This document shows positions 1 to 20,514 of a stretch of DNA of 22,617 nt, in pieces. The stretch's first letter is position 1. Every line of letters begins with the position of its first letter. The notes beneath the pieces were generated by a model. The model was not told the DNA's origin. It ran no database searches and saw only the letters and a list, made by a program, of their open reading frames with translations. The translations under genes and the position numbers were made by a program. This stretch comes from a virus: the IMG/VR virus record IMGVR_UViG_3300038550_000094, positions 1 to 22,617 of that record, one strand, 5' to 3'.

Positions 1-602
1 CTGGCGCCAAGGAAGCTGTAGTTTGCAACTCATGCACCAATGCTATTCAGTTGGCGCTAATGTGGTATCGCTGGACGCATGGGCCAAAGATTATTGAGTT
101 ACCTGCGAAGACCTTCGTCGGGGTTGCCCATGCGGTGATCAATGCCGGGCACAGCTTGACGTTTCGCGACTATGAGTGGTGCGGAGCCTATGAGCTCAGT
201 CCCCTGCCGGTGTGGGACTCGGCCCGGCGCTTCACTTCGGGCATGTGCATTCCGGGGACCATGTGGTGCGTGAGCTTCCACATTTCCAAGATCCTGGGTG
301 TCGATCAGGGTGGCGCGGTGCTGCTTGACGATCATCATGCGGCCGAGTTCATGCGGCGGGCGCGGTTTGATGGGCGCACCGCGGGCGTACATCCAACGCA
401 AGACCGGTTCCGCGAGCCGGCCATGCATTGTTACATGTCGCCCAATGTGGCGGCGCAGATCCGCTGGAAGTTGAGCTTCCTGCCAGAACATAACGCCGAT
501 CTGCCGATGGATGATTATCCGGACTTGCGTCATGACAGCTGGTTTCAAAATCCGCTTCGGCAAATGCGATTGTCGCGGCGTAAGTCTGTGGAAAACTCCT
601 GA
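1..602 (+). CDS. Compact DegT/DnrJ/EryC1/StrS-type PLP aminotransferase (5' end cut by window)
   Basis: The frame is open to the left edge (codons from base 3), so the N-terminus is missing and the TTG at 51 is not the real start. The first visible residues, VCNSCTNAIQLAL, match the family's S-G-T-x-A-L motif. Later come the PLP-ring aspartate in VWDSARRF (Asp codon 216-218), the Schiff-base lysine in SFHISK (Lys codon 288-290), GGAVLLDD and RARFDGR. The family transaminates keto-sugars of nucleotide sugars. In pseudaminic acid pathways (PseC, SpsC) it makes the 4-amino sugar, and the genes downstream fit that role. The protein is short: between the FRD strand and the PLP aspartate there are only about a dozen residues where canonical members have about 60, and the C-terminal domain is also reduced. 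It is probably a phage-type minimal version. The exact substrate cannot be told. Confidence 0.85.
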   Translation, partial: GAKEAVVCNSCTNAIQLALMWYRWTHGPKIIELPAKTFVGVAHAVINAGHSLTFRDYEWCGAYELSPLPVWDSARRFTSGMCIPGTMWCVSFHISKILGVDQGGAVLLDDHHAAEFMRRARFDGRTAGVHPTQDRFREPAMHCYMSPNVAAQIRWKLSFLPEHNADLPMDDYPDLRHDSWFQNPLRQMRLSRRKSVENS

Positions 603-798
603 TAAGGCTATTGCACGGCCTGTGCAAATCAATGGACGATACGGAATTCCAAGCCCGATGCTATAGGGCAAGAGCGAACGGCAGACGCCCCGTACAACCG
701 GAACGCTGCCAAGTAGGCCGAAAGCGGCGCCACAGCGAGAGGGCCGCCTGGCGCCCGGGATAAAAACCCGGGCGTCGGTTCCAGGTTCGAGGGGTAGC
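603..798 (+). other. 196-nt non-coding gap with several strong hairpins
   Basis: No convincing gene is seen here. Just after the stop codon there is a 6-bp hairpin (611-616 with 622-627), without a T-run. Further on, GGCAG (680-684) can pair with CTGCC (706-710), GCCG with CGGC around an AAAG loop (717-728), and a very strong 10-bp stem closes at 750-776. GCGGC (724-728) can pair with GCCGC (743-747), and the palindromic GGCGCC at 726-731 can pair with 750-755, competing with the 750-776 stem. This looks like a folded leader for the next gene or an unrecognised small RNA. A tRNA was considered and did not fit. Confidence 0.45.
750..776 (+). repeat. 10-bp GC-rich hairpin upstream of the zinc-protein gene
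   Basis: Bases 750-759 pair with 767-776 over 10 bp (nine Watson-Crick pairs and one G-T), with the 7-nt loop ATAAAAA. No T-run follows, so it is not a standard intrinsic terminator. It ends 22 nt before the ATG at 799, just upstream of the GAGGGG ribosome binding site. It could be a translational control element, an mRNA stabiliser or part of a structured RNA. Confidence 0.6.
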
Positions 799-1032
799 AT
801 GTCGATCACACCGATGTCGGATCGGAAGTCCGGATCTGAGAATTTCCTGATCGAATGCGATGCGGTGGGATGCAGGAAGTGTCTGGACGCCATGAATATG
901 GACTTCATCCAAGCGGTGGAGCTGGCCAAATCGAAGGGCTGGAAAGTGCGCAAGGTGTCGCGAGCGTATCACCATTATTGCCCGGGATGCGCCGACAGGC
1001 TGTGCGGGCACTCCCCACGCAAAGGGTTGTAG
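799..1032 (+). CDS. Small zinc-binding phage protein (77 aa)
   Basis: The ATG at 799 follows GAGGGG at good spacing. The 77-residue product carries Cys20, Cys25 and Cys28 and, after a short helical stretch, His58-His59 and a CPGC pair (Cys61, Cys64). This pattern predicts one structural zinc site. Small proteins with two cysteine clusters around a Trp/Lys-rich middle are common in phages of GC-rich proteobacteria and usually have no assigned role. The gene overlaps the start of the cytidylyltransferase by 46 nt and so belongs to the same transcript. Function unknown; a nucleic-acid-binding or regulatory role is only a guess. Confidence 0.7.
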   Translation: MSITPMSDRKSGSENFLIECDAVGCRKCLDAMNMDFIQAVELAKSKGWKVRKVSRAYHHYCPGCADRLCGHSPRKGL

Positions 1033-1670
1033 TCATCATCCAGGCCCGTCTCGGATCGTCGAGACTGCCATGCAAGGTGCTGCTGCCGCTGCCGACGGGG
1101 CGGTCCGTGCTTGCCGAGGTCGTCTACCGGGCCCGCAAGATTCATGGCGTCGATGAGGTGGTTGTCGCCGTCCCGGACGGCCGGCGTGATGATATTCTGG
1201 CGCATCATGTTGAGCAGCTGTCGGTTCGCCTCTATCGTGGCCCCGAAGATGATGTCTTATCGCGCTATCATGGCGCCGCTGTGGCGACGAAGGCCGATGT
1301 GGTGATGCGCATCACGGCGGACTGTCCCCTGATCCATCCGCCGGTTTGCGCGGGCGTGCTGGCGACCTTCCGCCGTCCCGGCAATGGGTATGATTACGTA
1401 TCGAACACCATGCCGCGCACTTTCCCAAAGGGGCTCGATTGCGAGGTGTTCAGCGCTGACCTGCTGGCATTTGCGCAATCGCAGGCGGTTGCCCAGCCGT
1501 ATCGCGAGCATGTCACGCTGTGGATGCTGGAGTCCTGGAATCGTCCGAATATTGTGATCGGCAATTACGCCAATGACGTCGATTACTCGCATGAGAACTG
1601 GTCGCTGGATACACTTGACGATTACTGCAATATATGCAATATCTTCGGTAAGAAAGAAGTATTGGTGTAG
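987..1670 (+). CDS. spsF: SpsF-like cytidylyltransferase (sugar activation)
   Basis: The product of about 227 aa shows the motifs of the SpsF/CMP-KDO-synthetase-like cytidylyltransferase family in order: IIQARLGSSRLPCKV (nucleotide-binding N-terminus), GPEDDVLSRY, RITADCPLI (metal-binding Asp), YVSNTMPRTFPKGLDCEVF, REHVT and a C-terminal SLDTLDDY. Such enzymes load an acidic sugar with CMP from CTP; in Bacillus sps and Campylobacter pse pathways this gives CMP-pseudaminic acid. The frame stays open upstream to 855, but that stretch is a shadow of the zinc-protein gene. ATG 987 (or GTG 1002) gives the usual family length, although neither has a clear Shine-Dalgarno sequence, which suggests coupling to the upstream gene. 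All expected motifs are intact. Confidence 0.85.
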   Translation: MRRQAVRALPTQRVVVIIQARLGSSRLPCKVLLPLPTGRSVLAEVVYRARKIHGVDEVVVAVPDGRRDDILAHHVEQLSVRLYRGPEDDVLSRYHGAAVATKADVVMRITADCPLIHPPVCAGVLATFRRPGNGYDYVSNTMPRTFPKGLDCEVFSADLLAFAQSQAVAQPYREHVTLWMLESWNRPNIVIGNYANDVDYSHENWSLDTLDDYCNICNIFGKKEVLV

Positions 1671-1672
1671 GC

Positions 1673-2119
1673 ATGTGTCAGGTGAGGGTCATTCTTGAGA
1701 CGGTTGAGCCGGATGAGGGGATGGTGACGTTTCTCTACCGGTTGCTGGAACAGCGCGAGCCGCATGAGAATATCTCGCACCAGAAGATGCCCTCCATGGA
1801 AGAGCACCGCCGTTTCATTGATGGCTGGCGCGAAATTTATCTCGACTGGCTGATCATCTGCTTGCCGTATAGCAAGCAGAGGGCTGGCTCGATCTATCTG
1901 ACGCACCGGCGCGAAATCGGCGTTCATCTTGTGTCGGACTGGCGAAGGCGGGGCATCGGTAGCGCCGCCGTGAAGGCGCTGATGGCGAAGCACGGGGCCG
2001 GCGTTTATTTTGCCAACATTGCGCCCGGTAATTACCGCAGCCAGGATTTCTTCGAGCATCACGGGTTCCGCATCATTCAGTATACGTACAAACTGGATTG
2101 GAGCGGAGAGTTGTGCTGA
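1673..2119 (+). CDS. GNAT-family N-acetyltransferase (probable sugar acetyltransferase)
   Basis: The 148-residue protein has the GNAT core. A strand, EIGVHLVSD, is followed by the acetyl-CoA pyrophosphate loop WRRRGIGSAAV (Q/RxxGxG/A-type), a helix, and the C-terminal signature NIAPGNYRSQDFFEHHGFRI, like the N-x-x-S-x-x-x-(Y/F)-x-x-x-G-F end of RimJ/PseH/SpsD-type enzymes. It starts 2 nt after the cytidylyltransferase stop and overlaps the next gene by 7 nt. In this setting the likely job is N-acetylation of a 4-amino sugar nucleotide (PseH or SpsD role). GNAT specificity cannot be read from sequence by eye, so this is inferred from the neighbours. Confidence 0.8.
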   Translation: MCQVRVILETVEPDEGMVTFLYRLLEQREPHENISHQKMPSMEEHRRFIDGWREIYLDWLIICLPYSKQRAGSIYLTHRREIGVHLVSDWRRRGIGSAAVKALMAKHGAGVYFANIAPGNYRSQDFFEHHGFRIIQYTYKLDWSGELC

Positions 2120-3135
2120 TCGGCGGTAGGGTCACAGCGCGCAATTATGCGGCGCAAGCGCAGGCCGGACTTATGGGATCGGCCGCTGGCTTTCCTACGC
2201 TGGATCGGAGCGGTGTCGAGCTGCTTGCGGGGCTGATCGGCACGGCGGTGCATTTTGCGTTGCCTGATGATGGCAAGATCTTCGACGACGATCTGCGCGG
2301 GCTCGCCGGGCAGAAGCTTAGGCTTCCCTATAAGAGGGTAACGCTGGAATATTATTCCCCCTATGACGAGGCTAAGCCTGGTCCAGAAAACCCGGTCTAC
2401 TCGCCGCGGCGGGTGATCTATCTGGAGGAGATGGATCGCGAAAAGGTGCTGGCGCGCCGGGAGCCTTACCGTCAGGCTGACGATAAGGATGCCGCTTACC
2501 TCGCGCCGGTCCCGAATCCGGCTCGCCTCAATGGGGATAGCTTTATCCTGGCGATGGTCGCGGCGCAGATCGATGGGGTTTGGCGGGCAATGGGCGCCAC
2601 CTGGATGTTCCAGGCCGAGGGGTGGGACGAGGCTGCCACCGATCCGCGATATGTCGGCACCCTGTCAGCGCGCGGCGAGATGGGCATTTTGATGCCGAAC
2701 TACGCGGCCGATCTTGTGAAAAGGCTTGGTGTTGCCAGGGCGAGGCGCACCCTCGGCATTGATGTTGAGGGAGAGCTGCGAGCAGCGATGGAGTTCTTTG
2801 AGGCCGTCAGCTGCCAGAATGTGGTGACGAGCGTCGGCGAGCATGCGGCTCCGCCCAATGTGAATGCGCGTCGTGCGCGTGACGGCAAGCTGCCGATCAA
2901 CGAGACCAAGATCCTGGCGATCGATCCTGGCTGGCTCGAAAGGCATTACCGGTCCTCCGACGGGGCCTCCTCTGGCCTTCGGGCCTCGCCGCGTCAGCAT
3001 TTGCGTCGAGGTCATATCCGACGCGTTCACCTGGATACGCCGCAGCAATATCAGGTGTGGATCCCTCCCACCGTGGTTGGAGATGCCGAGCGCGGCAGGG
3101 TCGACAAGAGCTATCAGATGGGGCGCAGAGCGTGA
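2113..3135 (+). CDS. Phage protein with AcrVA2-like RRGH C-terminal motif (340 aa)
   Basis: I chose GTG 2113, which overlaps the preceding stop (GTGCTGA) with GGAG just upstream; TTG 2098 is an alternative. The C-terminal 48 residues (about 293-340) carry PRQHLRRGHIRR, then VWIPPTVVGD, RGRV and SYQM. This R-R-G-H / W / V-G-x-x-x-R-G pattern is found in many phage and mobile-element proteins. From memory it is also the C-terminal pattern of the Cas12a inhibitor AcrVA2, which carries IRRGHWHGYW before its end. The N-terminal part (LRLPYKRVTLEYY and onward) is unfamiliar but broadly fits that family's layout. Calling it an anti-CRISPR would be speculation. The gene is oddly placed inside the sugar operon, overlapping both neighbours. 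It has no signal peptide or membrane segment. Confidence 0.6.
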   Translation: MLIGGRVTARNYAAQAQAGLMGSAAGFPTLDRSGVELLAGLIGTAVHFALPDDGKIFDDDLRGLAGQKLRLPYKRVTLEYYSPYDEAKPGPENPVYSPRRVIYLEEMDREKVLARREPYRQADDKDAAYLAPVPNPARLNGDSFILAMVAAQIDGVWRAMGATWMFQAEGWDEAATDPRYVGTLSARGEMGILMPNYAADLVKRLGVARARRTLGIDVEGELRAAMEFFEAVSCQNVVTSVGEHAAPPNVNARRARDGKLPINETKILAIDPGWLERHYRSSDGASSGLRASPRQHLRRGHIRRVHLDTPQQYQVWIPPTVVGDAERGRVDKSYQMGRRA

Positions 3136-4208
3136 AGATTGTGGGATACGAGATTGGATCTGGCCATCGGCCCTTCATTGTCTGCGAGATCGGTGCGGCA
3201 CACAACGGCTTGCTCGACCGGGCCTTGACCTTGATGGAGCAGGCCAAGCGCTGCGGTGCCGATGGGATAAAAATCCAGGCATTCACGCCGGATACGATCA
3301 CCTTCCCCGGGACGCGGCCCGAGTTTACTATTCAGTCCGGTCCGTGGATGGGGCGCACGCTTTATGATCTCTACAGTGAAACGCACATGCCGCGCGAGTG
3401 GTATCCGGCGCTGTTCGACCGTGCCAGGGATTTGCAGATTCCTTTGTTTGCCTCGGTGTTTTCCCGTGAGGATTTGATCTGGATGGAGCGGATGAATTGT
3501 CCGGCCTACAAGATCGCCTCCTGCGAGGTGGTCGATGTCGACCTGATCGAGGCGGTTGGCTACACCCGCAAGCCGATCATCATCTCGACGGGGATGGCCA
3601 TTAGTGAAGAAATCGATGAGGCTATCGGCGCCTATTGTACGGGATTTACCTCTGGGGCGCTACCAATGCCAGGAATCCCGCTTCGCAACATTGCGATTTT
3701 GCATTGCGTATCGGCTTATCCTACTGATGTTCGCGGTGCGGGGTTGGGTGCTCTGGATAATATGCGAGAGCGATGGGGCGCGGTAGAGATTGCTTACGGA
3801 CTTTCCGATCACACGCTCGGCATTGCGGCGCCGATCGTGGCGACAGTCAAGGGCGCGGCCATCATTGAGAAGCATTTGACCCTGTCGCGCAAGGATGGCG
3901 GTCCTGATGACTTTTTCGCCTCGGAGCCGGATGAGTTTATCGCCATGGTCAGGGCGGTGCAGGATGCGCACAGCGCGCTGCGAATCGAAACCGACGTCGC
4001 CGAAATGGCGCATGTACCATTGCGTCGATCGCTTTATGTCGTCAAAGATGTTAAGGTCGGCGAGCGCTTTACGCGAAACAATTTGCGCTCGATCCGACCT
4101 GGCAACGGCCTTCCGGTAAAGCAATTGCCTGCCCTCCTGAACACGCGAGCAAGGGTGAATGTTCTGGCGGGCACGCCAATGTCGGAAGATTTTGTGGAGA
4201 GAGTATGA
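3132..4208 (+). CDS. pseI: PseI-type pseudaminic (nonulosonic) acid synthase
   Basis: NeuB-family synthases condense phosphoenolpyruvate with a 6-carbon amino sugar to give a nonulosonic acid. The 358-aa protein is full length. It shows FIVCEIGAAHNG (about 15-26), GADGIKIQ (42-49), ASCEVVDVDLI, IISTGMA, HCVSAYPT, GLSDHTLGI and IIEKHLTLSRKDGGPDD. A C-terminal SAF/antifreeze-like domain spans about 298-358 (RRSLYVVKDV, SIRPGNGL, GTPM). The segment GPWMGRTLYDLYSETHMP resembles the PseI branch (GKTLYDLYxEAxTPWEW) rather than the LegI or NeuB branches, so pseudaminic acid or a close stereoisomer is the best guess for the product. It starts at GTG 3132, sharing GTGA with the stop of the previous gene. 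The longer frame from 3057 is a shadow. Confidence 0.9.
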   Translation: MKIVGYEIGSGHRPFIVCEIGAAHNGLLDRALTLMEQAKRCGADGIKIQAFTPDTITFPGTRPEFTIQSGPWMGRTLYDLYSETHMPREWYPALFDRARDLQIPLFASVFSREDLIWMERMNCPAYKIASCEVVDVDLIEAVGYTRKPIIISTGMAISEEIDEAIGAYCTGFTSGALPMPGIPLRNIAILHCVSAYPTDVRGAGLGALDNMRERWGAVEIAYGLSDHTLGIAAPIVATVKGAAIIEKHLTLSRKDGGPDDFFASEPDEFIAMVRAVQDAHSALRIETDVAEMAHVPLRRSLYVVKDVKVGERFTRNNLRSIRPGNGLPVKQLPALLNTRARVNVLAGTPMSEDFVERV

Positions 4209-4233
4209 CGTTACGGCAGCGATGAGGATGCTC

Positions 4234-4335
4234 ATGCCAGACAGCGCTGGAATGAAGACCTATGCCGGTTCAAAGAAGAAGCCGGCGAAGGTCAAGAAGC
4301 CACCGAAGGTGACCCCAAAGAGGAAGTCCTCATGA
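4234..4335 (+). CDS. Tiny basic Lys/Pro-rich peptide (33 aa)
   Basis: A short frame runs from ATG 4234 (GAGG six bases upstream; in-frame ATGs at 4222 and 4228 are possible) to a TGA that shares ATGA with the methylase start. The peptide begins MPDSAGMKTYAGSKKK and is then mostly Lys, Pro and Val, with a strongly positive C-terminal half. It resembles no domain I know. The correct ribosome-binding-site spacing and the stop/start overlap support real translation, perhaps to couple the methylase to the upstream gene. Its charge would allow nucleic-acid or anionic-sugar contact, but that is not shown. Confidence 0.55.
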   Translation: MPDSAGMKTYAGSKKKPAKVKKPPKVTPKRKSS

Positions 4336-4970
4336 ACGAGCAGGAAGCCTTCTGGCGCGGCAGTTTTGGTGATGATTATGTTGATCGCCACGGAAATGCC
4401 GAGGTTGAGCCGCGGGTGATTTTTTGGGACCGGGTATTCGACTGGGGCTCCGTCGATGCGCCCTCCAGCGTCATTGAGTTCGGTGCCAATGCCGGGCTCA
4501 ACCTGCGGGCCATCCGGTTGTTGTTCCGCCAAGTGGAGCTGCCGCTCGGTGAGAATGATCTGTTCGGTGTGGAGATCAACGAGAAGGCGGCGGCTGAACT
4601 GGGGGAGCATGGGTTCCCGCATCGGGTCGGGTCGATGCTGGGGTTTGACCCTGGTGGGCGCCGGTGGGATCTTGCCTTCACCATGGGGGTGCTGATTCAT
4701 GTTGCCCCGCAGGATCTGCCTCGGGCCTACGAAGCGCTTGATGCGGCATCGGATCGCTATGTGCTGATGGCGGAGTATTATTCGAGCACGCCGCGCGAGA
4801 TTGAATATCGCGGCCATCGCGGCAGGCTCTGGGCAAGGGATTTTTGCTCCGGGTTCATGGAGCAGTTTTCCGGTCAGTATCAGTTGCGTGACTATGGGTT
4901 TGCCTATCATGGTGATCCGGAATGTCCACTCGATGACGTGACCTGGATGCTCATGGAGCGCTCGCTGTGA
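4332..4970 (+). CDS. Pseudaminic acid biosynthesis-associated methylase
   Basis: The 212-aa protein is a class I SAM-dependent methyltransferase. Motif I is VIEFGANAGLNLRAI (about 47-61), the acidic strand is FGVEIN, and FTMGVLIHVAPQDL follows. Its C-terminal half, with AEYYSSTPREIEYRGH, LWARDF and DDVTWMLMER, matches the family known as pseudaminic acid biosynthesis-associated methylase (TIGR03587 pattern: EYY...YRGH...L..RDF...DD.TW). Family members sit in pse clusters, and their methyl acceptor is generally taken to be the sugar. It is linked by ATGA to the small basic peptide upstream and by GTGA to the amidotransferase downstream. No key motif is missing. Confidence 0.85.
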   Translation: MNEQEAFWRGSFGDDYVDRHGNAEVEPRVIFWDRVFDWGSVDAPSSVIEFGANAGLNLRAIRLLFRQVELPLGENDLFGVEINEKAAAELGEHGFPHRVGSMLGFDPGGRRWDLAFTMGVLIHVAPQDLPRAYEALDAASDRYVLMAEYYSSTPREIEYRGHRGRLWARDFCSGFMEQFSGQYQLRDYGFAYHGDPECPLDDVTWMLMERSL

Positions 4971-6109
4971 CCACCTTTGTTCGTTGCTCCCGCTGCCTGA
5001 TTCCCACCACTCGTCCGTCGACGGAGTTCAGGGATGGGCTGTGCTCGGCTTGCATTTGCTACGATCGGCGCAAGCAGATTGACTGGGTTGAGCGCGAGCG
5101 ACAATTCATCGAGCTGATCCGCTCGGCGCCGAAGAATAACTCTGGCTATCATTGCATCGTGGCGAGCTCCGGGGGTAAGGACAGCCATGCCCAGGTGCTG
5201 AAGATTCTGGAGCTCGGCTTCAAGCCGCTGATTGTCACGGCACAAACCTGCTCATTGACGCCGGTCGGCCACATGAATATTGAGAATCTGCGCCGCTTCG
5301 CTCCGACCATTGTTTACGAATACGATATGGCGGTGCGCCGCAAGCTCAACATTCTCGGCCAGGATCTGGTAGGAGACCTGTCGTGGCCCGAGCACGTAGC
5401 GATCTTCTCGGCACCGTTCCGAGTAGCCAAAGATCTCGGCATTTCTGTGGTGTTGTACGGCGAGAATCAAAACGCCGAATATGGCGGCCCGCTTGATGTC
5501 GCCGGCGAGCACCGCATGACGCGCCGCTGGATCGCTGAGCATGGTGGCCATCTTGGTTTGCGGCCATCGGATATGGTCGGCATGGACAGCATCACTGAGG
5601 GCGACATGGAGCCATACACGCTTCCCGACGATGAGGCGATGGAGGAGATCCAGGCGCTGTTCATGGGGGCATTCTTTGCCTGGAACAGCCAGGCCAATGC
5701 CGAGGTAGCGCTGAAGAATGGCATGCAGGCGCAACTGCCGACGCGGGCGAACTGGTGGTTCTTTGAGAATCAGGATTGTTTTCTCACCGGCATCCACGAC
5801 TTTCTGGGTTTCTTGAAATATGGCTATGGCCGACTCTGTGCGCAAATCAGCGTCGATCTGCGCTATGGCGGCCTGATCTCCCGCGAGGATGCCTACCGTA
5901 AAGTGAAAGAGCGCGATGGTCTATTCCCGCTCAACTATATGGGCAAGGGCATCCTTGAGATTCTGGATGATCTCGGCGTTTCGCCGGGTTGGTTTCTCGA
6001 CAGCTGCAACCGCTTCATGAACAAGGAGCTGTTCGTCGAGGATCATCTGGAGTGGGGGCAGGATCTGACATTGCGGGAATTCGCTGAGTCAAGGATGGCG
6101 GCGGAATGA
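4967..6109 (+). CDS. N-acetyl sugar amidotransferase (WbpG/PseA/WbuX type)
   Basis: The 380-aa protein has the usual length and layout of the family. An N-terminal zinc-like site holds two pairs, CSRC (Cys7, Cys10) and CSAC (Cys26, Cys29). The ATP pyrophosphatase P-loop is SSGGKDS at about 67-73. WbpG in Pseudomonas O-antigen and PseA in Campylobacter convert a sugar N-acetyl group into an acetamidino group, activating the amide with ATP. WbpG receives ammonia from HisH2/HisF2. GTG 4967 shares GTGA with the methylase stop. A HisF2-like gene lies about 500 nt downstream in the same direction, which supports the WbpG-HisF2 pairing. Substrate here is inferred to be pseudaminic acid. Confidence 0.87.
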   Translation: MTTFVRCSRCLIPTTRPSTEFRDGLCSACICYDRRKQIDWVERERQFIELIRSAPKNNSGYHCIVASSGGKDSHAQVLKILELGFKPLIVTAQTCSLTPVGHMNIENLRRFAPTIVYEYDMAVRRKLNILGQDLVGDLSWPEHVAIFSAPFRVAKDLGISVVLYGENQNAEYGGPLDVAGEHRMTRRWIAEHGGHLGLRPSDMVGMDSITEGDMEPYTLPDDEAMEEIQALFMGAFFAWNSQANAEVALKNGMQAQLPTRANWWFFENQDCFLTGIHDFLGFLKYGYGRLCAQISVDLRYGGLISREDAYRKVKERDGLFPLNYMGKGILEILDDLGVSPGWFLDSCNRFMNKELFVEDHLEWGQDLTLREFAESRMAAE

Positions 6110-6151
6110 GGGTGGTCGATGAGATGGTCGCAAAGGAGATGGAGGTTTCGC

Positions 6152-6376
6152 ATGGGTGAACAGCGCTCTGTCGGCTCTGGCGCCGTGCCGCCAAAGTCGG
6201 CCGCATCCGACTGGATGGCCGGCAAGGTGAAGCCGGCCAGTGGGCCGACTCCGGAGCCGCAGAAGGGCGCCATTTCAGCGGAGGATGGCGGCACCGGCAA
6301 TTCGATGGAGCTGGGTGGCGGCAAGAAGAAGACCGTTCGCAAGGACGGCTCCGATATGCCTGGATATCAGCAATGA
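6152..6376 (+). CDS. Small low-complexity hypothetical protein (74 aa)
   Basis: ATG 6152 is preceded by GGAGG at good spacing; the longer frame from 6119 lacks such a site. The product is rich in Gly, Pro, Ser and Lys (AVPPKSAASDW, ELGGGKKKTVRKDG) and probably disordered, with no recognisable domain. It shares ATGA with the next small gene. A 17-codon leader frame (6106-6159) that begins on the amidotransferase stop as ATGA runs into it and may carry ribosomes across the gap. Small Gly/Lys-rich proteins of this kind are common near virion genes in related phages. Role unknown. Confidence 0.6.
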   Translation: MGEQRSVGSGAVPPKSAASDWMAGKVKPASGPTPEPQKGAISAEDGGTGNSMELGGGKKKTVRKDGSDMPGYQQ

Positions 6377-6621
6377 GACTGGCGACGCCGAGCTATTTAG
6401 GGCAGAAGGATTTCTACGTCAACCTCGCCACCTATGAAGGCAAGGTTGGGTTTGCCGAAGGAGCTCGGGCCGCGCAGGATGGATTGCCGGCGACGGCCAA
6501 CCCTTATGTTTATCCAGATGGCACGCCGCTGAAGTGCTTCGTCAAAGTTTACAACGAATGGCATCGCGGCTGGCAGTCGATTGCCGGGCCGGCGGCGCGG
6601 ATGGTGCCTGAGGGGTGCTGA
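6373..6621 (+). CDS. Conserved-looking small phage protein (82 aa)
   Basis: ATG 6373 overlaps the stop of the previous gene (ATGA). The 82-aa product contains NPYVYPDGTPLKCFVKVYNEWHRGW, a compact aromatic-rich motif I have seen in phage hypothetical proteins but cannot name. There is no signal peptide or membrane span. The stop overlaps the GTG of the HisF2-like gene (GTGCTGA). The two small genes 6152-6621 therefore lie between the amidotransferase and its likely ammonia-supplying partner, an arrangement typical of phage mosaics rather than bacterial O-antigen clusters. Confidence 0.65.
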   Translation: MRLATPSYLGQKDFYVNLATYEGKVGFAEGARAAQDGLPATANPYVYPDGTPLKCFVKVYNEWHRGWQSIAGPAARMVPEGC

Positions 6622-7370
6622 AAACTCGCGTTATCCCGACTATTCTTCACCGCGGCATGCAGGCGATCAAGGGCCAGAAATTCGGTTCCTGGCGGTCGAT
6701 CGGCTCAGTTCGTCAGCAGGTTGAAATTTATGAGGCGCGCGGGGTTGACGAGCTGATAGTGCTCGAGATTGGCACGCCGTCAGAGCGGTTCGGACCTAAC
6801 TTCGCTTTGATCAGAGAGCTCACGGGCCGGTGCTTCATGCCAGTAACCATAGGCGGGGGATTTCGGCAGCCTGCCGATTTTCAGCTCGGCCTCGCGAACG
6901 GCGCCGACAAGATCTGCCTCTGTTATGGAGCGCTGTGGGTCGACCGGCTCATCGAGCGGGCCGCAGAAAAATGCGGCTCTCAAAGCGTTGTCGCATGCCT
7001 TGAGCATTTCGAGCATCGCCCGGTATGTCGGACTGGCGTCGAGAAGTTCCACCAGCTCGAAGGCAGCATTGCTGATTGGGTCAAGCGTCTCGCTGATCGG
7101 GGTGCTGGCGAGATCCTGCTCAACAGCATTGACCGCGATGGCATGCTCTGCGGCTATGATTTGCGGGCGATCGCTGAGGCGGCGCGGGCGGTATCGGTTC
7201 CGATAGTGGCGCTTGGCGGCGCGGGTGAACCGCTGCATTTTCTGGATGCGCTTCAATGTGGAGCTCATGCGTGTGCTGCCGGTGCGATTTTTGCGTTCAC
7301 TGAATACACCCCCAAAATTGTGGTAGAATTCCTGGCCGCCAAAGGCATTTCCGTAAGAATTGAGAAATAG
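6615..7370 (+). CDS. HisF2-like (beta/alpha)8 barrel subunit of the sugar amidotransferase
   Basis: The 251-aa protein aligns along its whole length with HisF: RVIPTILHRGMQAIKG at the N-terminus, MPVTIGGGFR, GADKI, AGEILLNSIDRDGMLCGYD and VPIVALGGAGE. The two catalytic aspartates of imidazole-glycerol-phosphate synthase (Asp11 and Asp130 in Thermotoga HisF) align to Leu11 and Glu130, so histidine synthesis is unlikely. The same loss at position 11 is typical of HisF2 proteins that channel ammonia to WbpG-type amidotransferases. GTG 6615 overlaps the upstream stop. No HisH (glutaminase) gene follows; the ammonia source is therefore open. It is the last sugar gene in the window, followed by a promoter-like gap. 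Confidence 0.85.
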   Translation: MLKTRVIPTILHRGMQAIKGQKFGSWRSIGSVRQQVEIYEARGVDELIVLEIGTPSERFGPNFALIRELTGRCFMPVTIGGGFRQPADFQLGLANGADKICLCYGALWVDRLIERAAEKCGSQSVVACLEHFEHRPVCRTGVEKFHQLEGSIADWVKRLADRGAGEILLNSIDRDGMLCGYDLRAIAEAARAVSVPIVALGGAGEPLHFLDALQCGAHACAAGAIFAFTEYTPKIVVEFLAAKGISVRIEK

Positions 7371-7527: not shown

Positions 7528-7977
7528 ATGACGATTGACCATCACGGCAGTCGCATCAAGCATTCGATCTACGGGCGCAAGCTTGGGCTCGACCATAATG
7601 ACTTCCTGACCGTGTTCCTGGATGTGGTTCCGGCGACCGAGACGGTGACCGCGGCATCGACTTTGTCGAAGGGCGGCACATCGCTGCTTGCGGCAACGGC
7701 GGTGACGGTTTGGGAGTTGCCACCACCGGTAACCACATTGATTGGAGCGCGTAAGCGTCTGATCAATAATACCACTGGGCTGTCTCAGCTTGTCAAGCTA
7801 ACTGCCGGGAATTTCCAGGTAAACAGTGGAACGACGTATACCACCCTTACTCTGTCCGGGAAAGGAGTCGCCGTTGACCTGGAGTACATCTCAACAGCAT
7901 TGGTTGAGGTGGTAACGCCGTTTTCAACACTGACGACAGGCTTTGCTTCGTATTTCCAGCCGACGACCACAACGTAA
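7528..7977 (+). CDS. Putative virion-associated protein (149 aa)
   Basis: ATG 7528 follows AAAGGAG at 8-9 nt. The 149-residue product is rich in Thr, Val, Ser and Leu with alternating polar and hydrophobic stretches (TTYTTLTLSGKGVAVDLEYIS, TTGFASYFQPTTTT), as in beta-rich phage structural proteins. It has no cysteine, signal peptide or membrane span. It opens the virion module and is followed within 11 nt by another small gene. I cannot name its family. Decoration, head-fibre or tail-associated roles are possible but unsupported. Confidence 0.7.
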   Translation: MTIDHHGSRIKHSIYGRKLGLDHNDFLTVFLDVVPATETVTAASTLSKGGTSLLAATAVTVWELPPPVTTLIGARKRLINNTTGLSQLVKLTAGNFQVNSGTTYTTLTLSGKGVAVDLEYISTALVEVVTPFSTLTTGFASYFQPTTTT

Positions 7978-8135: not shown

Positions 8136-9239
8136 ATGAGGGCAGTGAAGAAAATTGCGGTTATGGGTTCGGCGCCGAGCAGCGTGCTATTGGCGCCGTT
8201 CGATGACCCGAGCTGGGATATTTGGGGGTGCAGCCCAGGGTTGTATCCAGTGGCGCGTCGTGTCTCAAAGTGGTGGGAAGTTCACCGTTGGGAACCCGGT
8301 AAGCCTTGGTTTACACAGGAATATATCTCCTGGATGGCGAGACTTCAGTGTCCGGTGATGATGATCGCCCCGGTCAAGGAGATTCCGAATTCGGTCGCCT
8401 ATCCGATCGGTGCCGTGCTGGATTATGTCTATGCGCGGCATTTGGTGCCGGTATTCGAGGGCATGGAGTTTGGTGGTGACACCAGCAAATACGTCTATGT
8501 TGGCGATCAGCCGCATGTCTGGGTGGACAAACGCTTCGATCGCAGCGACTTTTCTTCGACTATTGCCTGGATGTTGGCCCTGGCAATCATCGAGGGCGCC
8601 ACGGAGATTGGCCTCTGGGGTGTTGACATGTCAGCAATGGAAGAATGGGCCTGGCAGCGACAGGGATGTCAACATCTCATCGACGTTGCCAAGTCGCTCG
8701 GCATCAAGGTGACGGTGCCGCCCGAGAGCGATTTGCTGCGCCCGCCGCCGCTTTACGGCTTCTGTGAGATCGACCCGGCGCATGCCAAATATGTGGTGCG
8801 CCGCGACGAGCTGACCCAGCGTCGCAATAACGCCATCGTGCGCGGGCAGGCGGCGCAGCGAGAGGTCGACCATCTCAACGGCGCCATCGAGGATCTGGAG
8901 TATCACCGTTTCACCTGGATCGGCAATCCCTTCCATCTGTCGCAGAACTTCCACAGCGTCGCCGAGCCGATCGTCTTCAGCCCCTCGCCAGCGAACGCAA
9001 TGACGCCGGCTGAGCCGCCGGTCCCCGCCGTGGCCGCGATGCCGGTGCCCGATATCGCGCCGGCGGAGGACTGGCGCGATGCGGAGGACTGGCGCGATCT
9101 TGAAGCATCGCTGGCCAACCCCACTGTTGGCGTTCACAATGGTCCGGCGGTGTCCATTCCATCGACAACCCTCGCCGAGCTGTCAACCGCTCTGGCGGGG
9201 CTCGACAACGCCGCGGTGAATGGCGAAGCTCGTCCCTGA
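8136..9239 (+). CDS. Phage Rossmann-like protein resembling MptE/MAF-type domains
   Basis: The 367-aa protein starts at ATG 8136 after GAGGGA. An N-terminal strand-loop, IAVMGSAPSS, then WGCSPGL, a middle SSTIAWMLALAI, and GATEIGLWGVDMSAMEEW form a pattern seen in phage proteins annotated as 6-hydroxymethylpterin pyrophosphokinase MptE-like. This fold is related to the MAF (DUF115) domain of flagellin glycosyltransferases. The C-terminal third (from about residue 270) is Pro/Ala-rich and probably disordered, with a duplicated AEDWRD. It ends as TGATG on the terminase start. Proteins of this type often sit beside terminases, so a structural or packaging-related role is as likely as sugar transfer. 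Function is not established. Confidence 0.6.
   Translation: MRAVKKIAVMGSAPSSVLLAPFDDPSWDIWGCSPGLYPVARRVSKWWEVHRWEPGKPWFTQEYISWMARLQCPVMMIAPVKEIPNSVAYPIGAVLDYVYARHLVPVFEGMEFGGDTSKYVYVGDQPHVWVDKRFDRSDFSSTIAWMLALAIIEGATEIGLWGVDMSAMEEWAWQRQGCQHLIDVAKSLGIKVTVPPESDLLRPPPLYGFCEIDPAHAKYVVRRDELTQRRNNAIVRGQAAQREVDHLNGAIEDLEYHRFTWIGNPFHLSQNFHSVAEPIVFSPSPANAMTPAEPPVPAVAAMPVPDIAPAEDWRDAEDWRDLEASLANPTVGVHNGPAVSIPSTTLAELSTALAGLDNAAVNGEARP
9063..9098 (+). repeat. 18-bp perfect tandem duplication (2 copies)
   Basis: GCGGAGGACTGGCGCGAT occurs twice head to tail at 9063-9080 and 9081-9098. It duplicates the peptide AEDWRD in the disordered tail of the upstream protein. It is in frame, so the gene is not broken, and the identity of the copies suggests a recent slip. 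Confidence 0.9.
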
Positions 9240-10834
9240 TGCTCAATCCCGATCTGGCCAAGCGCCTCGCTGGGTTGAACCTCAGCGAGGCCGAGCAGGT
9301 CGAGATGAAACGATTTCTCACCGAGGAATCGGCAAAGTGGACACCCAATGCTGGACCTCAGCAACTTGCGGTATATAATCCTGCAGACACACTACTTTGG
9401 GGTGGTCAAGCTGGTGGTGGAAAGACGGACCTGCTGCTTGGGCTTGCGTTTACCCAGCATCAGCGCTCGCTGATCCTGCGCCGCAAATATGCGGATCTGA
9501 GCTCGATCATCGAGCGCACATTCGAGATCAATGGATCGCGCAAGGGATTCAATGGTTCGCCGCCGCCGAAATTGCGCACCATGGATGGCCGGTTGATCCA
9601 GTTCGCCGGCAATCAGTTCGAGGGTGACGAGCAGGACTGGGCCGGTCGGCCGTTCGATCTGAAAGGCATCGATGAGGCGACTCAACTACTTGAATCTCAA
9701 GTCAGATTTCACTTAGGGTGGATTCGCTCCGCCGACATCAAGCAGCGCTGCCGGGCGGTGCTGGCCTCCAACCCGCCGATCTCGGCGGATGGCGACTGGA
9801 TCATCGGCTTCTTCCGGCCCTGGCTGGATCTGACTCATCCCAATCCCGCCAAGCCTGGCGAGTTGCGCTGGTTCATTACCAACGAAGATGGGCGAGATGA
9901 AGAGGTTTCCGGTCCCGAGCCGATCGAGCGCGGCGGCGAAGTCTATCGTCCGAAGTCACGCACCTTCATTCCGGCCAAGCTGTCGGACAATCCCTATCTG
10001 GTGCGCACCGACTACCAGTCGACGCTCGATGCCTTGCCGGAGCCGATCCGCTCCGCGGTGCGCGACGGCAATTTCATGGCGGCCCGTGCCGACGATCAGT
10101 GGCAGGTGATCCCAATGGCCTGGGTGCTGGCTGCGCAGGCGCGCTGGACACCAGACGGCTATAAGAGCTTCGCCATGACGGCAATGGCGCTTGACCCGGC
10201 CGGCGGCGGCAAGGACGTTGAGGAGATCTGCTGGCGCCATGGCGGCTGGTTTTCCGAGATCGTCAGCCATCAGGGCAAGGGCACGGAGGGTTCCGGCCAG
10301 GCGGTGGTGGAGATCTTCCTGCACCGCGAGGACGGTGCGCCGGTGGTGATCGATGTTGGTGGCGGCTATGGCGGCGCTGCCTGCATGCGGCTCAACGATA
10401 ATGAAGTCCCTCATGTGAAATTCAATGGCTCACACGCCGGGTCCGGCCGGGCTGTCGGCACCAGCCAGCCATTCGAGAACCGCCGTGCCGAAGCCTGGTG
10501 GCGCATGCGCGAGGCGCTTGACCCCAATCAGAAGGGCGGCTCGGTCATCGCCTTGCCGCCTTGCCCGGAGCTGCGTGCCGATCTGACGGCACCGCGCTAT
10601 TTGCCCAAGGTGTTGCAGGAGCGCGGTGTCATCCAGGTCGAGCCGAAGGAAGATCTGCGCCGCCGTCTCGGCCGCTCGCCGGGCAAGGGCGATGTGGTGG
10701 TGATGTGCCTGTCGGCCGGTGCTTCGGTGATCAAGAAGGTGGTGCTTGAGGGCGGGCGCGGCGAGCTGGTGAAATTTGCCAGAAGCCGATCGACGGGGCC
10801 GCTGGCCCGTTATCGCAGCCATCGGCGGGCTTGA
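9239..10834 (+). CDS. terL: Terminase large subunit
   Basis: The 531-aa DNA-packaging motor has an ATPase domain with Walker A LLWGGQAGGGKT (about 52-63), Walker B DLKGIDEA (about 140-147, Glu146 as catalytic carboxylate) and the coupling motif ASNPP (176-180). A C-terminal RNase H-like nuclease domain follows, with MALDPAGGGKD (Asp319), VVIDVGGGYGG (Asp372) and a later acidic stretch around CPELRADL. It cuts concatemeric phage DNA and pumps it into the prohead through the portal encoded just downstream. The start overlaps the preceding stop as TGATG. No small terminase subunit is recognised with confidence in the window; the 114-aa protein at 15788 is one weak possibility. Confidence 0.93.
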   Translation: MLNPDLAKRLAGLNLSEAEQVEMKRFLTEESAKWTPNAGPQQLAVYNPADTLLWGGQAGGGKTDLLLGLAFTQHQRSLILRRKYADLSSIIERTFEINGSRKGFNGSPPPKLRTMDGRLIQFAGNQFEGDEQDWAGRPFDLKGIDEATQLLESQVRFHLGWIRSADIKQRCRAVLASNPPISADGDWIIGFFRPWLDLTHPNPAKPGELRWFITNEDGRDEEVSGPEPIERGGEVYRPKSRTFIPAKLSDNPYLVRTDYQSTLDALPEPIRSAVRDGNFMAARADDQWQVIPMAWVLAAQARWTPDGYKSFAMTAMALDPAGGGKDVEEICWRHGGWFSEIVSHQGKGTEGSGQAVVEIFLHREDGAPVVIDVGGGYGGAACMRLNDNEVPHVKFNGSHAGSGRAVGTSQPFENRRAEAWWRMREALDPNQKGGSVIALPPCPELRADLTAPRYLPKVLQERGVIQVEPKEDLRRRLGRSPGKGDVVVMCLSAGASVIKKVVLEGGRGELVKFARSRSTGPLARYRSHRRA

Positions 10835-11052: not shown

Positions 11053-11253
11053 ATGGGTGGTCTCTTTGGCGGTGGCAGTAAGAAGCCGCCGAGCAAGCCG
11101 GCTTCGACGACATCGGCGCCGGCGCCGGCCGCAAACAATGCGGATAAGCTTGCCGCATCGGGTAAGCCCGGCGGCAACATGCCGTTCGGGCGGCAGAAAT
11201 CGGTGACCGACCTCGCCACGGAGCAGGAAGGGGACGCATCCCTTGGCGGCTAG
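11053..11253 (+). CDS. Small MGG-type phage protein B (66 aa)
   Basis: ATG 11053 lies one base after the previous stop. The protein begins MGGLFGGGSKK, has a Pro/Ala/Ser linker and ends FGRQKSVTDLATEQ. The glycine-rich start and the GRQ-x-TDL-type end mirror the preceding gene. No membrane span is present. Its last 11 bases overlap the portal start. It may be a small head-assembly or virion component, but the role is unknown. Confidence 0.65.
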   Translation: MGGLFGGGSKKPPSKPASTTSAPAPAANNADKLAASGKPGGNMPFGRQKSVTDLATEQEGDASLGG

Positions 11254-13285
11254 CCCAACGGACAAATACAAGGCCAGGCGTGCGAAATCGCAGGTCGACC
11301 TCGGCAACAAGCTCTTCACCAAGAAGCGCGGCATCGACAGCCTCAATCAGGACATCGCAGAACAGTTCTGCCCGGATCTGGCCTCCTTCAACAGGGAGCT
11401 GGAGCTCGGCGAGGACTTTATGATGGACGTCATGGACAGCGTGCCGATCCAGGTTAGCCGTGAGTGCTCCAACGCCGTCGGCGCCAATCTGCGGCCGCAA
11501 GACCAGCTGTGGTTCCGCTCTACCACCATGGATGATGACGCCGACGCGGTGGAGGAAAACGCGCGCGGCCTGGAGAGCATCACTAAGCAGATGTGGTGCG
11601 GCATCTATCATCCGCGCGCCCAGCTGATCACCGCCACCAAGGAGGCGGACCGCTTCTATGTGAATTTCGGTCAGGCTGTCATCGGCGCCAATGAGGCGCC
11701 GACCCGCGATCATCTGCTGTTCAAGAACTATCACATCAAGGACTGCGCCTGGCTGGAGAACGATATCGGCGAGGTCGATCAGATGCACCGCCGGCAGAAA
11801 ATGTCGGCGCGCGCCATGGTGATGCGGTTCGGCGATAAGGTGCATGACAGCATCAAGAAATGCGCCACCAAGGATCCGGAGAAGGAATTCGAGGTCCGTG
11901 TCATCACCATGCCGTCCGAGGAATATGACGACATGGTCGATGCGAAGGGGGCGAAACGCAAGCTGCCCTTCGTCATGGTGCATATCGATGTCGAGCATGA
12001 CCGGGTGCTGCGCGAGGGCGGGCTGGTCGCTTTCAACTACATTGTGCCGCGCTGGCATCGCTTTGCCGGTTCGCAATATGCGTTCTCTCCCGCCGCGCTG
12101 ACGGCGCTCCCCGATGCGCGCATGGCACAGATGCTGTCGCAGATCCTGCTCGATGCCGGTGAGAAGGCGGTTGACCCGCCCATCGTCGCCAAGCAAGAGA
12201 TCGTCATTGGTGAGCCCAACATCATGGCGGGCGGCATCACCTGGGTCGACATCGAGCACGACAAGAAGCTGCGCGATGCCATCGAGGCGATGCAGATCAA
12301 TGTCGATATGCGGGTCGGCGTGGAGATGCGCAAGGATGTGCGCGAGCTGCTGTCCCGGGCCTTCTATCTCGACCGCATTCAGCTGCCCGAGGTTGCCGAC
12401 CGCACTACCGCTTTCGAGATCGCCCGGCGCCTTGAGCAGCATGCCCGCAATCTGCTGCCGCTGTTTGAGCCCATTCAGATCGATTACAATACCCGGCTGC
12501 TCGATACCGCCTTTGCCTTTCTGCAGAATATGAAGAAGATCGATTGGAGCAAGACCCCAAGCGGTCTCGCCAATACCGACTTTACCTGGGCGTTCGAATC
12601 ACCGATCCAGCAGGCGCGCTACCGCGTCATGGTCGAGCAGTTCCGCGACACGCTGCAGGTCGTGGCGGCTGCCAAGCAGATGGGCCTCAACGCTTCGCCG
12701 ATCCATCTCGATATCGCCACCCGCGATGCGGTGCGTGGCATCGATGGCCCGGCCACCTGGCGCAAGACCCAGGACGAGCAGGCGCAGGAGGCGCAGGAGA
12801 ATGCACAAAAGCAGCAGATGGCCGAGGCGATCGGCGCCTTGCATCAGGCCGGCGAGGCTGGCGCCAAGGTTGGCGATGCCGGCCAGAAGCTCGGCCTTAT
12901 TCCCAAGGGCGGCCCGATCGCGCCGAATGCCGAACAGGCCGTTCCGTCGGATTACGCGGTTCCCGCTTCCTACGACACCCAATCCCCTCACAACGCCATG
13001 CGCGCGCTCGATGATGCGATGCGCCAGCTTGGCGGCGGAACTGGAGCCGAACCCTCGCCGGCGCCAGGCCCTGGGGCGCCCGGCTCTCCCTCGGTCGGAA
13101 TAGCTGTGCCCCAGGGCAATTATAACGACACGGTCGCCATGCAGCGCAACATCCTTGCCAAGCTCGGCGAGCTTGAGCAGGCGCTGAAGGCTCCGCGTCA
13201 GATCAGCATCAATCGCGACAAGGGCGGCCGGATTACCGGCGCCAGCGCCGGCGGAGGCAAGCATGGCGGACGAAAAGCAGCCTGA
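11243..13285 (+). CDS. Portal / head-to-tail connecting protein
   Basis: The 680-aa product starts at TTG 11243, with AGGAAGGGG about ten bases upstream, inside the end of the previous gene. Its size, its place after the terminase and its sequence match the podoviral head-to-tail connector family: N-terminal FCPDLASFNRE, GANLRPQDQLWF (family usually has a G-L-T-S-P-x-x-x-W-F-like motif), long basic central part and YDRIQLPEV-like stretch (here FYLDRIQLPEV). The dodecameric portal forms the DNA channel at the capsid vertex. After about residue 510 comes a Gln/Ala/Glu-rich coil and then a Pro/Gly linker. The last 45 residues (NILAKLGELEQALKAPRQ, INRDKGGRITGA) resemble the small protein encoded next. 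Confidence 0.87.
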   Translation: MAASPTDKYKARRAKSQVDLGNKLFTKKRGIDSLNQDIAEQFCPDLASFNRELELGEDFMMDVMDSVPIQVSRECSNAVGANLRPQDQLWFRSTTMDDDADAVEENARGLESITKQMWCGIYHPRAQLITATKEADRFYVNFGQAVIGANEAPTRDHLLFKNYHIKDCAWLENDIGEVDQMHRRQKMSARAMVMRFGDKVHDSIKKCATKDPEKEFEVRVITMPSEEYDDMVDAKGAKRKLPFVMVHIDVEHDRVLREGGLVAFNYIVPRWHRFAGSQYAFSPAALTALPDARMAQMLSQILLDAGEKAVDPPIVAKQEIVIGEPNIMAGGITWVDIEHDKKLRDAIEAMQINVDMRVGVEMRKDVRELLSRAFYLDRIQLPEVADRTTAFEIARRLEQHARNLLPLFEPIQIDYNTRLLDTAFAFLQNMKKIDWSKTPSGLANTDFTWAFESPIQQARYRVMVEQFRDTLQVVAAAKQMGLNASPIHLDIATRDAVRGIDGPATWRKTQDEQAQEAQENAQKQQMAEAIGALHQAGEAGAKVGDAGQKLGLIPKGGPIAPNAEQAVPSDYAVPASYDTQSPHNAMRALDDAMRQLGGGTGAEPSPAPGPGAPGSPSVGIAVPQGNYNDTVAMQRNILAKLGELEQALKAPRQISINRDKGGRITGASAGGGKHGGRKAA

Positions 13286-18213: not shown

Positions 18214-18611
18214 CGATTTTTCTATATGTGAGATCAGGGCTGGCGCGGACGCCACTCCGGCTTCGTGTTTATCCGCCGCCTTGGCCCCAAGGCCGCCGGC
18301 TCATGATGGCGGGAGGGGCACTAAGGCGTAAGCTTTATAGGCTTACCGGCGGAAATGGCTCCCCGAGCTCAAGGGGCAGCCCGATCTGCCCATTCAATCT
18401 ATTGCGTTTTGTCACTTTTCACAAGTGTCAGTCCGGTCTTCGCGGCCACCCTGTGGATAACCGCAGCCCCGCATCATGAAGACTGACTTCCTTTTGCCTA
18501 CTGGAAAGCCCCGACAATCAGATGCTTTGCGGTCCCGGCTCGCCGGCCACCCCGCGCCACAGCGTTGCTGACGTCGGCCACCCTGACCGGACGGCTCGAA
18601 CCAAATCCCTC
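18214..18611. other. About 400-bp non-coding region with hairpins, short repeats and one DnaA-box-like site
   Basis: No gene is convincing here. Hairpins can be drawn at 18278-18293 (GCCTTGG with CCAAGGC), 18328-18346 (GTAAGC with GCTTAC) and 18357-18381 (GGCTCCCC with GGGG-C-AGCC). CGGCCACCC occurs three times (18443, 18544, 18575), twice as CGGCCACCCTG. TGTGGATAA at 18452-18460 is the reverse of the DnaA-box consensus TTATCCACA. The stretch lies between the lone minus-strand gene and the capsid gene, in a place where related phages have little or no gap. It may be debris of an insertion or a control region. Confidence 0.4.
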
Positions 18612-18641
18612 TTTACAAGTATTAGGAAGGTCTGCTATAAT
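18612..18641 (+). promoter_or_regulatory. Near-consensus sigma70-type promoter overlapping the capsid start
   Basis: TTTACA (18612-18617) and TATAAT (18636-18641) are separated by 18 nt, which is close to consensus in a GC-rich genome. The -10 overlaps the capsid ATG at 18640, so a transcript from it would begin inside the first codons and could not give the full capsid protein. The AGGAAGG ribosome binding site (18623-18629) lies in the spacer. Either a chance match or a promoter for the intron/endonuclease. Confidence 0.35.
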
Positions 18642-18761
18642 GGTAGATAGTGCATTCCAGGTACAATACAGAGAGGAGCATGTTGCGGCGTTCGAGCAGA
18701 ACTACAGCATGCTTCGAGTCTGTTGCGTACAGGAGGCAGTAATCAAGGGAAACCAAGCGGT
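18640..18761 (+). CDS. Major capsid protein, exon 1
   Basis: The first exon begins at ATG 18640 after AGGAAGG and encodes MVDSAFQVQYREEHVAAFEQ onward to EAVIKGNQA plus two bases of the next codon. This is the N-terminus of a phage coat protein family whose members continue FLVAGSGGATAVTRGVNG, exactly what exon 2 encodes. Without splicing the frame ends at a stop at 18787-18789, after nine extra residues. The last exon base is a T, paired as U-G with the intron guide sequence, as group I introns require. Joining 18640-18761 to 19803-20514 gives 834 nt, or 277 aa, in frame. Confidence 0.85.
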
Positions 18762-19802: not shown

Positions 19803-20514
19803 TTTCTTGGTTGCTGGCTCCGGCGGTGCAACCGCCGTCACGCGCGGTGTCAATGGGTACATCCCCTACGGCACCGTCTCCAACGTGCAGAACACATGCA
19901 CGCTATTGGAGTACCACGCCCCATTTGAACGCACAGGTTTTAATGTCTTTGCGTCTCAGGGTGACCAGCGCCGCATCATGCAGATGTCCTCGGTTGCGGT
20001 GCTCAACCGCAATATCGATCAGCTGATCATCAATCAGCTCGATACGGCGACCCAGACGACTGGGTCGGCGGTCAAGGCGTCTCTCAATCTTGTCGTCAAG
20101 TCCTTCACCATCCTGGGCAACCAGGAAGTGCCGGTGTGGGAAGAGGACAAGATGTTCGCCGTCGTCACTCCATCCTTCATTGGCTATCTGATGCAGGTGA
20201 CGGAGTTCTCCTCGGCCGACTATGTCGACGTCAAGCCGTTCGTTGGTCCGGCCAAGAAGATGCGCCGGTGGATGGGCATCAACTGGTTCACCCACCCGAA
20301 CCTGACCGGCGTCGGCACCTCTTCGGAGAAATGCTACATGTTCCATCGCGATTCGATGGGCCATGCGGCCAACTCCAAGGAGATGAAGGTCGAGGTCGAC
20401 TATGACCGCAAGCAGGATCTGTCCTGGTCGCGGGCGACGCTGTTCCACAACGCCAAGCTTCTCCAGTCCGCCGGCATCGTGCAAATGATTCATGATGGCA
20501 GCGAATATACGTGA
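19803..20514 (+). CDS. Major capsid protein, exon 2
   Basis: Exon 2 completes the split Val codon and encodes FLVAGSGGATAVTRGVNGYI, then NTCTLLEYHAPFERTGFNVF, a helix and loop region (SSVAVLNRNIDQLIINQLDT), FAVVTPSFIGYLM, FVGPAKKMRRWMGINWFTHP, and KVEVDYDRKQDLSWSRATLF to the end. This is the body of an HK97-fold-type coat protein of the Phage_capsid_2-like group, as I judge it from pattern and position after a scaffold gene. It forms the icosahedral shell. TTG 19807 at the head of this frame is not a real start, because it lies in the middle of a conserved capsid motif. Stop TGA is at 20512-20514. Confidence 0.87.

Follow-up and report, generated by a model that had tools for sequence, protein, structure and literature searches.

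A compact pseudaminic acid-type gene module beside the packaging genes of uncultured phages and its possible use in virion glycosylation

Phage genes that act on capsular nonulosonic acids have been described: prophage epaA and epaB act on the pseudaminic acid of the Acinetobacter capsule (8-epipseudaminic acid) (PMC12053666), and phage O-acetyltransferases act on capsular nonulosonic acids (PMC6586298). For mycobacteriophages Che8 and Rita, which code for glycosyltransferases, glycosylated capsids have been reported (Freeman et al. 2023, cited in PMC11256854). No description of phage-encoded pseudaminic acid synthesis was found in the open-licence literature, subscription papers and preprints not being covered. 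A bacterial counterpart of the locus described here is present in Desulfovibrionales GWA2_65_9 (L128), in which PseC, methylase, PseG, PseI, PseF, WbuX, HisH, and HisF genes lie in a row; all except HisF score over their cut-offs, and a PseB-like ORF stands in front.

The window is the whole of an uncultured-virus record, a linear contig of 22,617 bases in which no tRNA genes were found. The GC content is ∼58 to 60% across most of the left part and similar elsewhere, except for a dip at 18 to 20 kb. From position 9239 rightwards the contig is phage, coding for a terminase, a portal, a GP4-like gp80 protein, a capsid, and a tail tubular protein; it is podovirus-like by its head and packaging genes, and the closest cultured phages by portal similarity are Pelagibacter phages (∼25% identity). 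The capsid gene (18565-20514) is split by ∼1 kb containing a LAGLIDADG/HNH-type endonuclease ORF (18865-19791). An Rfam search of this gap matched no intron family, and the same endonuclease family is inserted at a different position in the capsid gene of contig L082 (4326-6084).

The left part of the window (positions 3-7370) is a sugar operon (Table 1). Profile searches recover all seven gene types named by the initial annotation (a DegT aminotransferase, an SpsF-like cytidylyltransferase, a GNAT protein, a PseI-type synthase, a Pse-associated methylase, an N-acetyl sugar amidotransferase, and a HisF2-like protein), on the plus strand and where it had placed them. The overlapping genes and neighboring phage genes that it described are also present, with four gene pairs overlapping by a few bases each from GNAT through HisF (GNAT/orf2098, orf2098/PseI, methylase/WbuX, and orf6373/HisF), and with terminase, portal, capsid, and tail genes coming after the operon. 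The cytidylyltransferase start at 855 is probably wrong, with an ATG at about 987, picked by eye inside the ORF 855-1670, being preferred, and orf2098 had been left out. Orf2098 has no Pfam, NCBIfam, or PHROG match and no relative in the compared loci or in cultured phages; among the compared contigs it is unique to the window.

Table 1. Coordinates of the sugar-operon, candidate transferase and acceptor, and selected virion genes of the window.
Feature	Coordinates	Strand	Evidence or remark
Compact DegT/PseC-type sugar aminotransferase	3..602	+	PF01041 46.4 bits (cut-off 19.8); 5' end missing at contig start
SpsF-like cytidylyltransferase, candidate CMP-sugar synthetase	987..1670	+	PF02348 (CTP_transf_3) 66.2 bits (cut-off 22.6)
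GNAT acetyltransferase, candidate PseH role	1673..2119	+	PF13302 31.8 bits (cut-off 25.4)
345-aa ORF (orf2098), function unknown, between GNAT and PseI	2098..3135	+	No family match
PseI-type nonulosonate synthase with SAF domain	3132..4208	+	TIGR03586 346.5 bits (cut-off 340.25); NeuB and SAF domains
Pse-associated methylase	4332..4970	+	TIGR03587 184.1 bits (cut-off 112.05)
WbuX-type N-acetyl sugar amidotransferase	4967..6109	+	TIGR03573 211.9 bits (cut-off 203.2)
Two small ORFs (6119-6376, 6373-6621)	6119..6621	+	Conserved in L072 only
HisF/WbuZ-like protein	6615..7370	+	PF00977 (His_biosynth) 130.9 bits (cut-off 23.6)
Small protein rich in Ser/Thr, inferred to be a candidate glycan acceptor	7528..7977	+	Precedes 8136-type protein in almost every related contig
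Candidate CMP-nonulosonate transferase, possibly with the sialyltransferase-superfamily fold	8136..9239	+	Foldseek; directly before terminase
Terminase large subunit (TerL)	9239..10834	+	phrog_979 E 8.7e-23
Portal/head-tail connector	11243..13285	+	PF12236 190.4 bits
Major capsid protein, main part	19807..20514	+	phrog_3437 E 5.1e-40; N-terminal part within 18565-18789

Three enzymes of the contig, PseI, the Pse methylase, and WbuX, were observed to pass NCBI curated cut-offs, those of the same families (TIGR03586, TIGR03587, and TIGR03573) that the initial annotation had put forward for checking its assignments. In the PDB, PseI matches a pseudaminic acid synthase (8h2c, E 1.6e-62). The DegT, cytidylyltransferase, GNAT, and HisF-like proteins pass Pfam cut-offs but not pathway-specific ones. 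The PseC equivalog TIGR03588 (cut-off 423.5) is missed by both the 5'-cut DegT of the window (32.5 bits) and the complete DegT of L045 (54.3 bits), and the PseF cut-off TIGR03584 (205.7) is missed by the L022 homologue (182.4 bits). In place of PseF, the window carries the SpsF-like enzyme, which is below the KdsB equivalog cut-offs. The HisF-like protein is below those of WbuZ, AglZ, and HisF, scoring 197.3 bits against 299.7 for TIGR03572 (HisF2/WbuZ), although WbuZ is still its best NCBIfam match. PseH membership is supported in the contig only by a generic GNAT domain match, and GNAT adjoins PseI in most relatives. The PseB and PseF homologues of the phages have TIGR03589 and TIGR03584, respectively, as their best NCBIfam matches.

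The phage DegT proteins are compact, with 194 to 241 aa compared with ∼380 for PseC, and alignment shows the loss of ∼45 middle residues and the C-terminal domain. The phosphate-loop NSCT, the Asp of WDxARRF(TS), and the Lys of SFHxSK are retained. The L045 homologue, modelled with AlphaFold2 (pLDDT 95.9, pTM 0.92), has sugar aminotransferases as its best PDB matches, among them PseC (2fnu, TMq 0.72), ArnB, and perosamine synthase. PseF-type proteins and several PseI proteins of the phages are also shortened.

Single-protein PseI scans of viral and genome contigs found no relative, and a scan with a PseI profile built from an alignment matched 64 viral contigs. The same near-complete module, defined by DegT, PseI, and at least five of nine pathway families, was observed in 38 distinct contigs, the window counted. 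It is usually organized in the order PseB, DegT, PseF (or SpsF-like), methylase, WbuX, HisF, GNAT, PseI, small proteins, the 8136-type protein, TerL, and portal. The window and its closest relatives (L045, L011, and L052) differ in that GNAT and PseI precede the methylase, and a second lineage (lineage B: L016, L019, L026, L036, and L050) has the same pathway in a different gene order. For the small ORFs between DegT and PseF (F32 and F41), neither a split DegT domain nor a short PseG is supported; these ORFs are missing from the window and the other SpsF-type contigs, and the two members tested have no Pfam match. In cultured phages, WbuX and the methylase have no match, and PseI has only three weak ones (25 to 29%).

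Several relatives carry additional genes within the module. An HNH protein, weakly IscB-like, is located between WbuX and HisF in L072 (3169-3921) and L011 (4484-5749); the window has no such gene, two small ORFs taking its place. The divergent phage L044/L074 codes for a PhyH-type dioxygenase and a second methyltransferase (11608-13111), suggesting further tailoring of the sugar. Two phage contigs with the module and TerL, portal, or 8136-type genes (L126 and L127) have been assigned to MAGs, one betaproteobacterial and the other alphaproteobacterial, which is possibly a hint of the host or possibly bin contamination. Pelagibacteraceae single-cell genomes (L130-L137) have WbuX and HisF proteins 37 to 40% and 34 to 38% identical to those of the window, near PseB-, PseC-, and PseI-like genes.

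The initial annotation correctly reported that the window has neither PseB nor PseG and proposed looking for both further left. For PseB this is borne out by the relatives, with matches in 21 of 23 contigs directly upstream of DegT (206 to 390 bits, below the TIGR03589 equivalog cut-off of 407.75), and for this reason the window's own PseB probably lies just beyond the left contig end. PseG (TIGR03590), in contrast, was detected in none of the 23 contigs searched, positive controls being detected, so the known pathway cannot be completed by the phage alone, and PseG activity is inferred to come from the host or from an unrecognised phage enzyme. The HisH glutaminase (PF00117) was likewise found in 0 of 23 contigs, again with positive controls detected. 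Bacterial clusters such as L128 have PseG and HisH beside the same genes, and other bacterial WbuX loci also have HisH.

In Thermotoga maritima HisF, we take the ammonia gate to be R5, E46, K99, and E167, the HisH contacts to be D45 and D98, and D11 to be catalytic. A residue check of phage HisF shows that the gate-equivalent R5, E46, and E167 are retained wherever aligned, K99 is retained in all but one (Arg), and both HisH contacts (D45 and D98) remain; the cyclase residue D11 is lost in all, the window included. Judged from sequence alone, this pattern is consistent with a HisF that has given up formation of the imidazole product yet may still dock HisH, and because the phages are without their own HisH, that of the host is inferred to be the natural candidate partner.

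Neither the 8136-9239 protein nor its homologues have a Pfam match pointing to a transferase, and no member matches the CST-I or MptE-like families; a PF06002 search gave no match anywhere and is hence uninformative. A Foldseek search of the PDB with the 8136-9239 model returns CstII (3.0e-5 and 1.8e-4, prob 1.00), then HPPK, ST8SiaIII, and Maf (5mu5), although the model is only moderate (pLDDT 69, with much of the core at 80 to 95, and a TM to CstII of ∼0.43). The protein is thus inferred to be a putative CMP-sugar transferase on a structural link only, without activity data. A profile-profile link to MptE-like proteins was no better than unrelated controls, PseB scoring higher, and is not used as evidence. 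A scan with the 8136-9239 protein alone matched 165 contigs, of which 80 were kept, and pathway genes are present in 27 of 29 contigs chosen by the 8136-type protein alone (with at least 6 kb upstream), some of which had already been found through PseI. Homologues are also located beside terminase without detected pathway genes in L160, L143, and Microcystis phage L007. The Ser/Thr richness of the candidate acceptor is likewise present in other virion proteins. In lineage B, all five contigs code for two to three MptE-like (PF01973) proteins over the Pfam cut-off; outside it, PF01973 proteins occur in 3 of 25 other PseI contigs (22 are without) and in none of 20 contigs not selected for PseI. 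MptE/Maf-type proteins of lineage B contig G021 are encoded between a major head gene and a tail gene, and the layout in G004 is the same by sequence; this capsid-tail placing rests on the two lineage B contigs examined.

The reading that we consider reasonably probable, without being secure, is that the phage makes a methylated and amidinated CMP-pseudaminic acid with the help of host PseG and HisH activities and links it to a protein of the virion; the identity of the sugar, the host supply, the transferase activity, and the virion acceptor are all inferred. By analogy with bacteria, PseB (beyond the left contig end but present in relatives) and the compact DegT would yield a 4-amino-6-deoxy-altrose nucleotide, which GNAT would acetylate. 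UDP would be taken off by a PseG activity undetected in the phages, PseI would join the sugar with phosphoenolpyruvate, and the cytidylyltransferase would give the CMP form. The methylase would add a methyl, and WbuX and HisF, using ammonia from host HisH, would add amidino groups. The 8136-9239 protein would then move the sugar onto a virion protein encoded nearby, most likely one such as 7528-7977, during particle assembly. The broader proposal remains tentative: the particles of two uncultured phage lineages would bear a coat of modified bacterial sialic acid, made by a reduced CMP-pseudaminic acid pathway that the host completes and attached by CMP-sugar transferases of the phages themselves. 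The pathway would rely on a DegT of ∼200 residues, about half the usual size.

The suggestion of the initial annotation that the phage makes a modified sialic-acid-like sugar is supported, but its choice between a virion coat and remodeling of the host is not settled. The virion is favoured because the transferase-like genes are placed in the packaging and head blocks, although there are no glycan data. The main rival, which we regard as unlikely, is that the sugar remodels the surface of the infected host (lipopolysaccharide, capsule, or flagellin) and thereby keeps out competing phages or alters receptors. In bacteria these enzyme families do serve surface glycans, prophage genes altering capsular nonulosonic acids are described (PMC12053666, PMC6586298), and integrase matches over cut-off, present in 7 of the 21 contigs, each of them from lineage A, indicate that some may be temperate. 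However, no integrase was found in the other 14, including all five of lineage B, and both the position of the module, on the same strand directly before the terminase and head genes, and that of the lineage B MptE-type proteins between capsid and tail (in the contigs examined) suggest late expression with the virion. It is more doubtful still that the enzymes jointly act on another substrate, either a different amino sugar or a non-sugar metabolite, with a product other than pseudaminic acid. The lack of PseG, the several members below equivalog cut-offs, and the potential of compact enzymes for new specificity are compatible with this, but PseI, the methylase, and WbuX are over their cut-offs, the PseB and PseF homologues match best to the pseudaminic acid families, and the gene set corresponds to that of the bacterial L128 cluster.

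There is very little left to recommend the explanation that host DNA is misjoined to phage DNA, or that the operon is a decaying recent acquisition, and for the family it is refuted. In its favor, the contig end truncates DegT, and the operon region of L072 diverges from the window more than the virion genes do. Nucleotide identity between the window and L072 is 94 to 97% for TerL and portal and ∼64 to 73% for 7528 and 8136. However, L072 is an independent near-relative (TerL 99%) with an operon-terminase junction identical in arrangement to that of the window, and the arrangement is common to the 38 contigs, which disposes of the misassembly that the initial annotation had left as an alternative. 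The dN/dS values between the window and L072 are well below 1 (0.13 for WbuX, 0.31 for HisF, and 0.15 for 8136), and these genes are under purifying selection. In the WbuX tree, 20 lineage A phages form one long-stemmed clade and lineage B another (SH-aLRT 100 for both), although the topology test leaves a single clade of phages possible (p-AU 0.14). Because of these clades and dN/dS values, the pathway genes are considered long-standing residents of the phages, and the candidate transferase-acceptor pair (8136/7528) is among the faster-changing parts.

If a virion coat is correct, these phages build and attach nonulosonic acids rather than only altering those of the host, offering a testable route to sialic-acid-like virion coats along with a naturally occurring series of half-sized sugar enzymes; the predicted recruitment of host HisH and PseG activities is testable protein by protein. 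The module resembles the bacterial pseudaminic acid pathway (PseB-C-H-G-I-F) with Pse methylase and WbuX-HisH-HisF, as in L128, in its enzyme families and close gene adjacency. It differs in the absence of detectable PseG and HisH, a DegT about half the size, shortened PseF-type and several shortened PseI proteins, a HisF without the cyclase base, and its location beside phage packaging genes. The 8136-9239 protein may, on its moderate model, be similar in predicted fold to Maf flagellin glycosyltransferases and CstII-type (GT42) sialyltransferases, without a significant sequence link for lineage A, whereas lineage B has MptE-like (PF01973) proteins. Che8 and Rita are alike in having phage genes proposed to glycosylate capsid proteins, but it is glycosyltransferases that are described there, whereas the present phages also carry a multi-enzyme nonulosonate pathway. 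Finally, epaA/epaB and the phage O-acetyltransferases are alike in being phage genes that act on capsular nonulosonic acids, but they alter a host-made sugar and do not build one.
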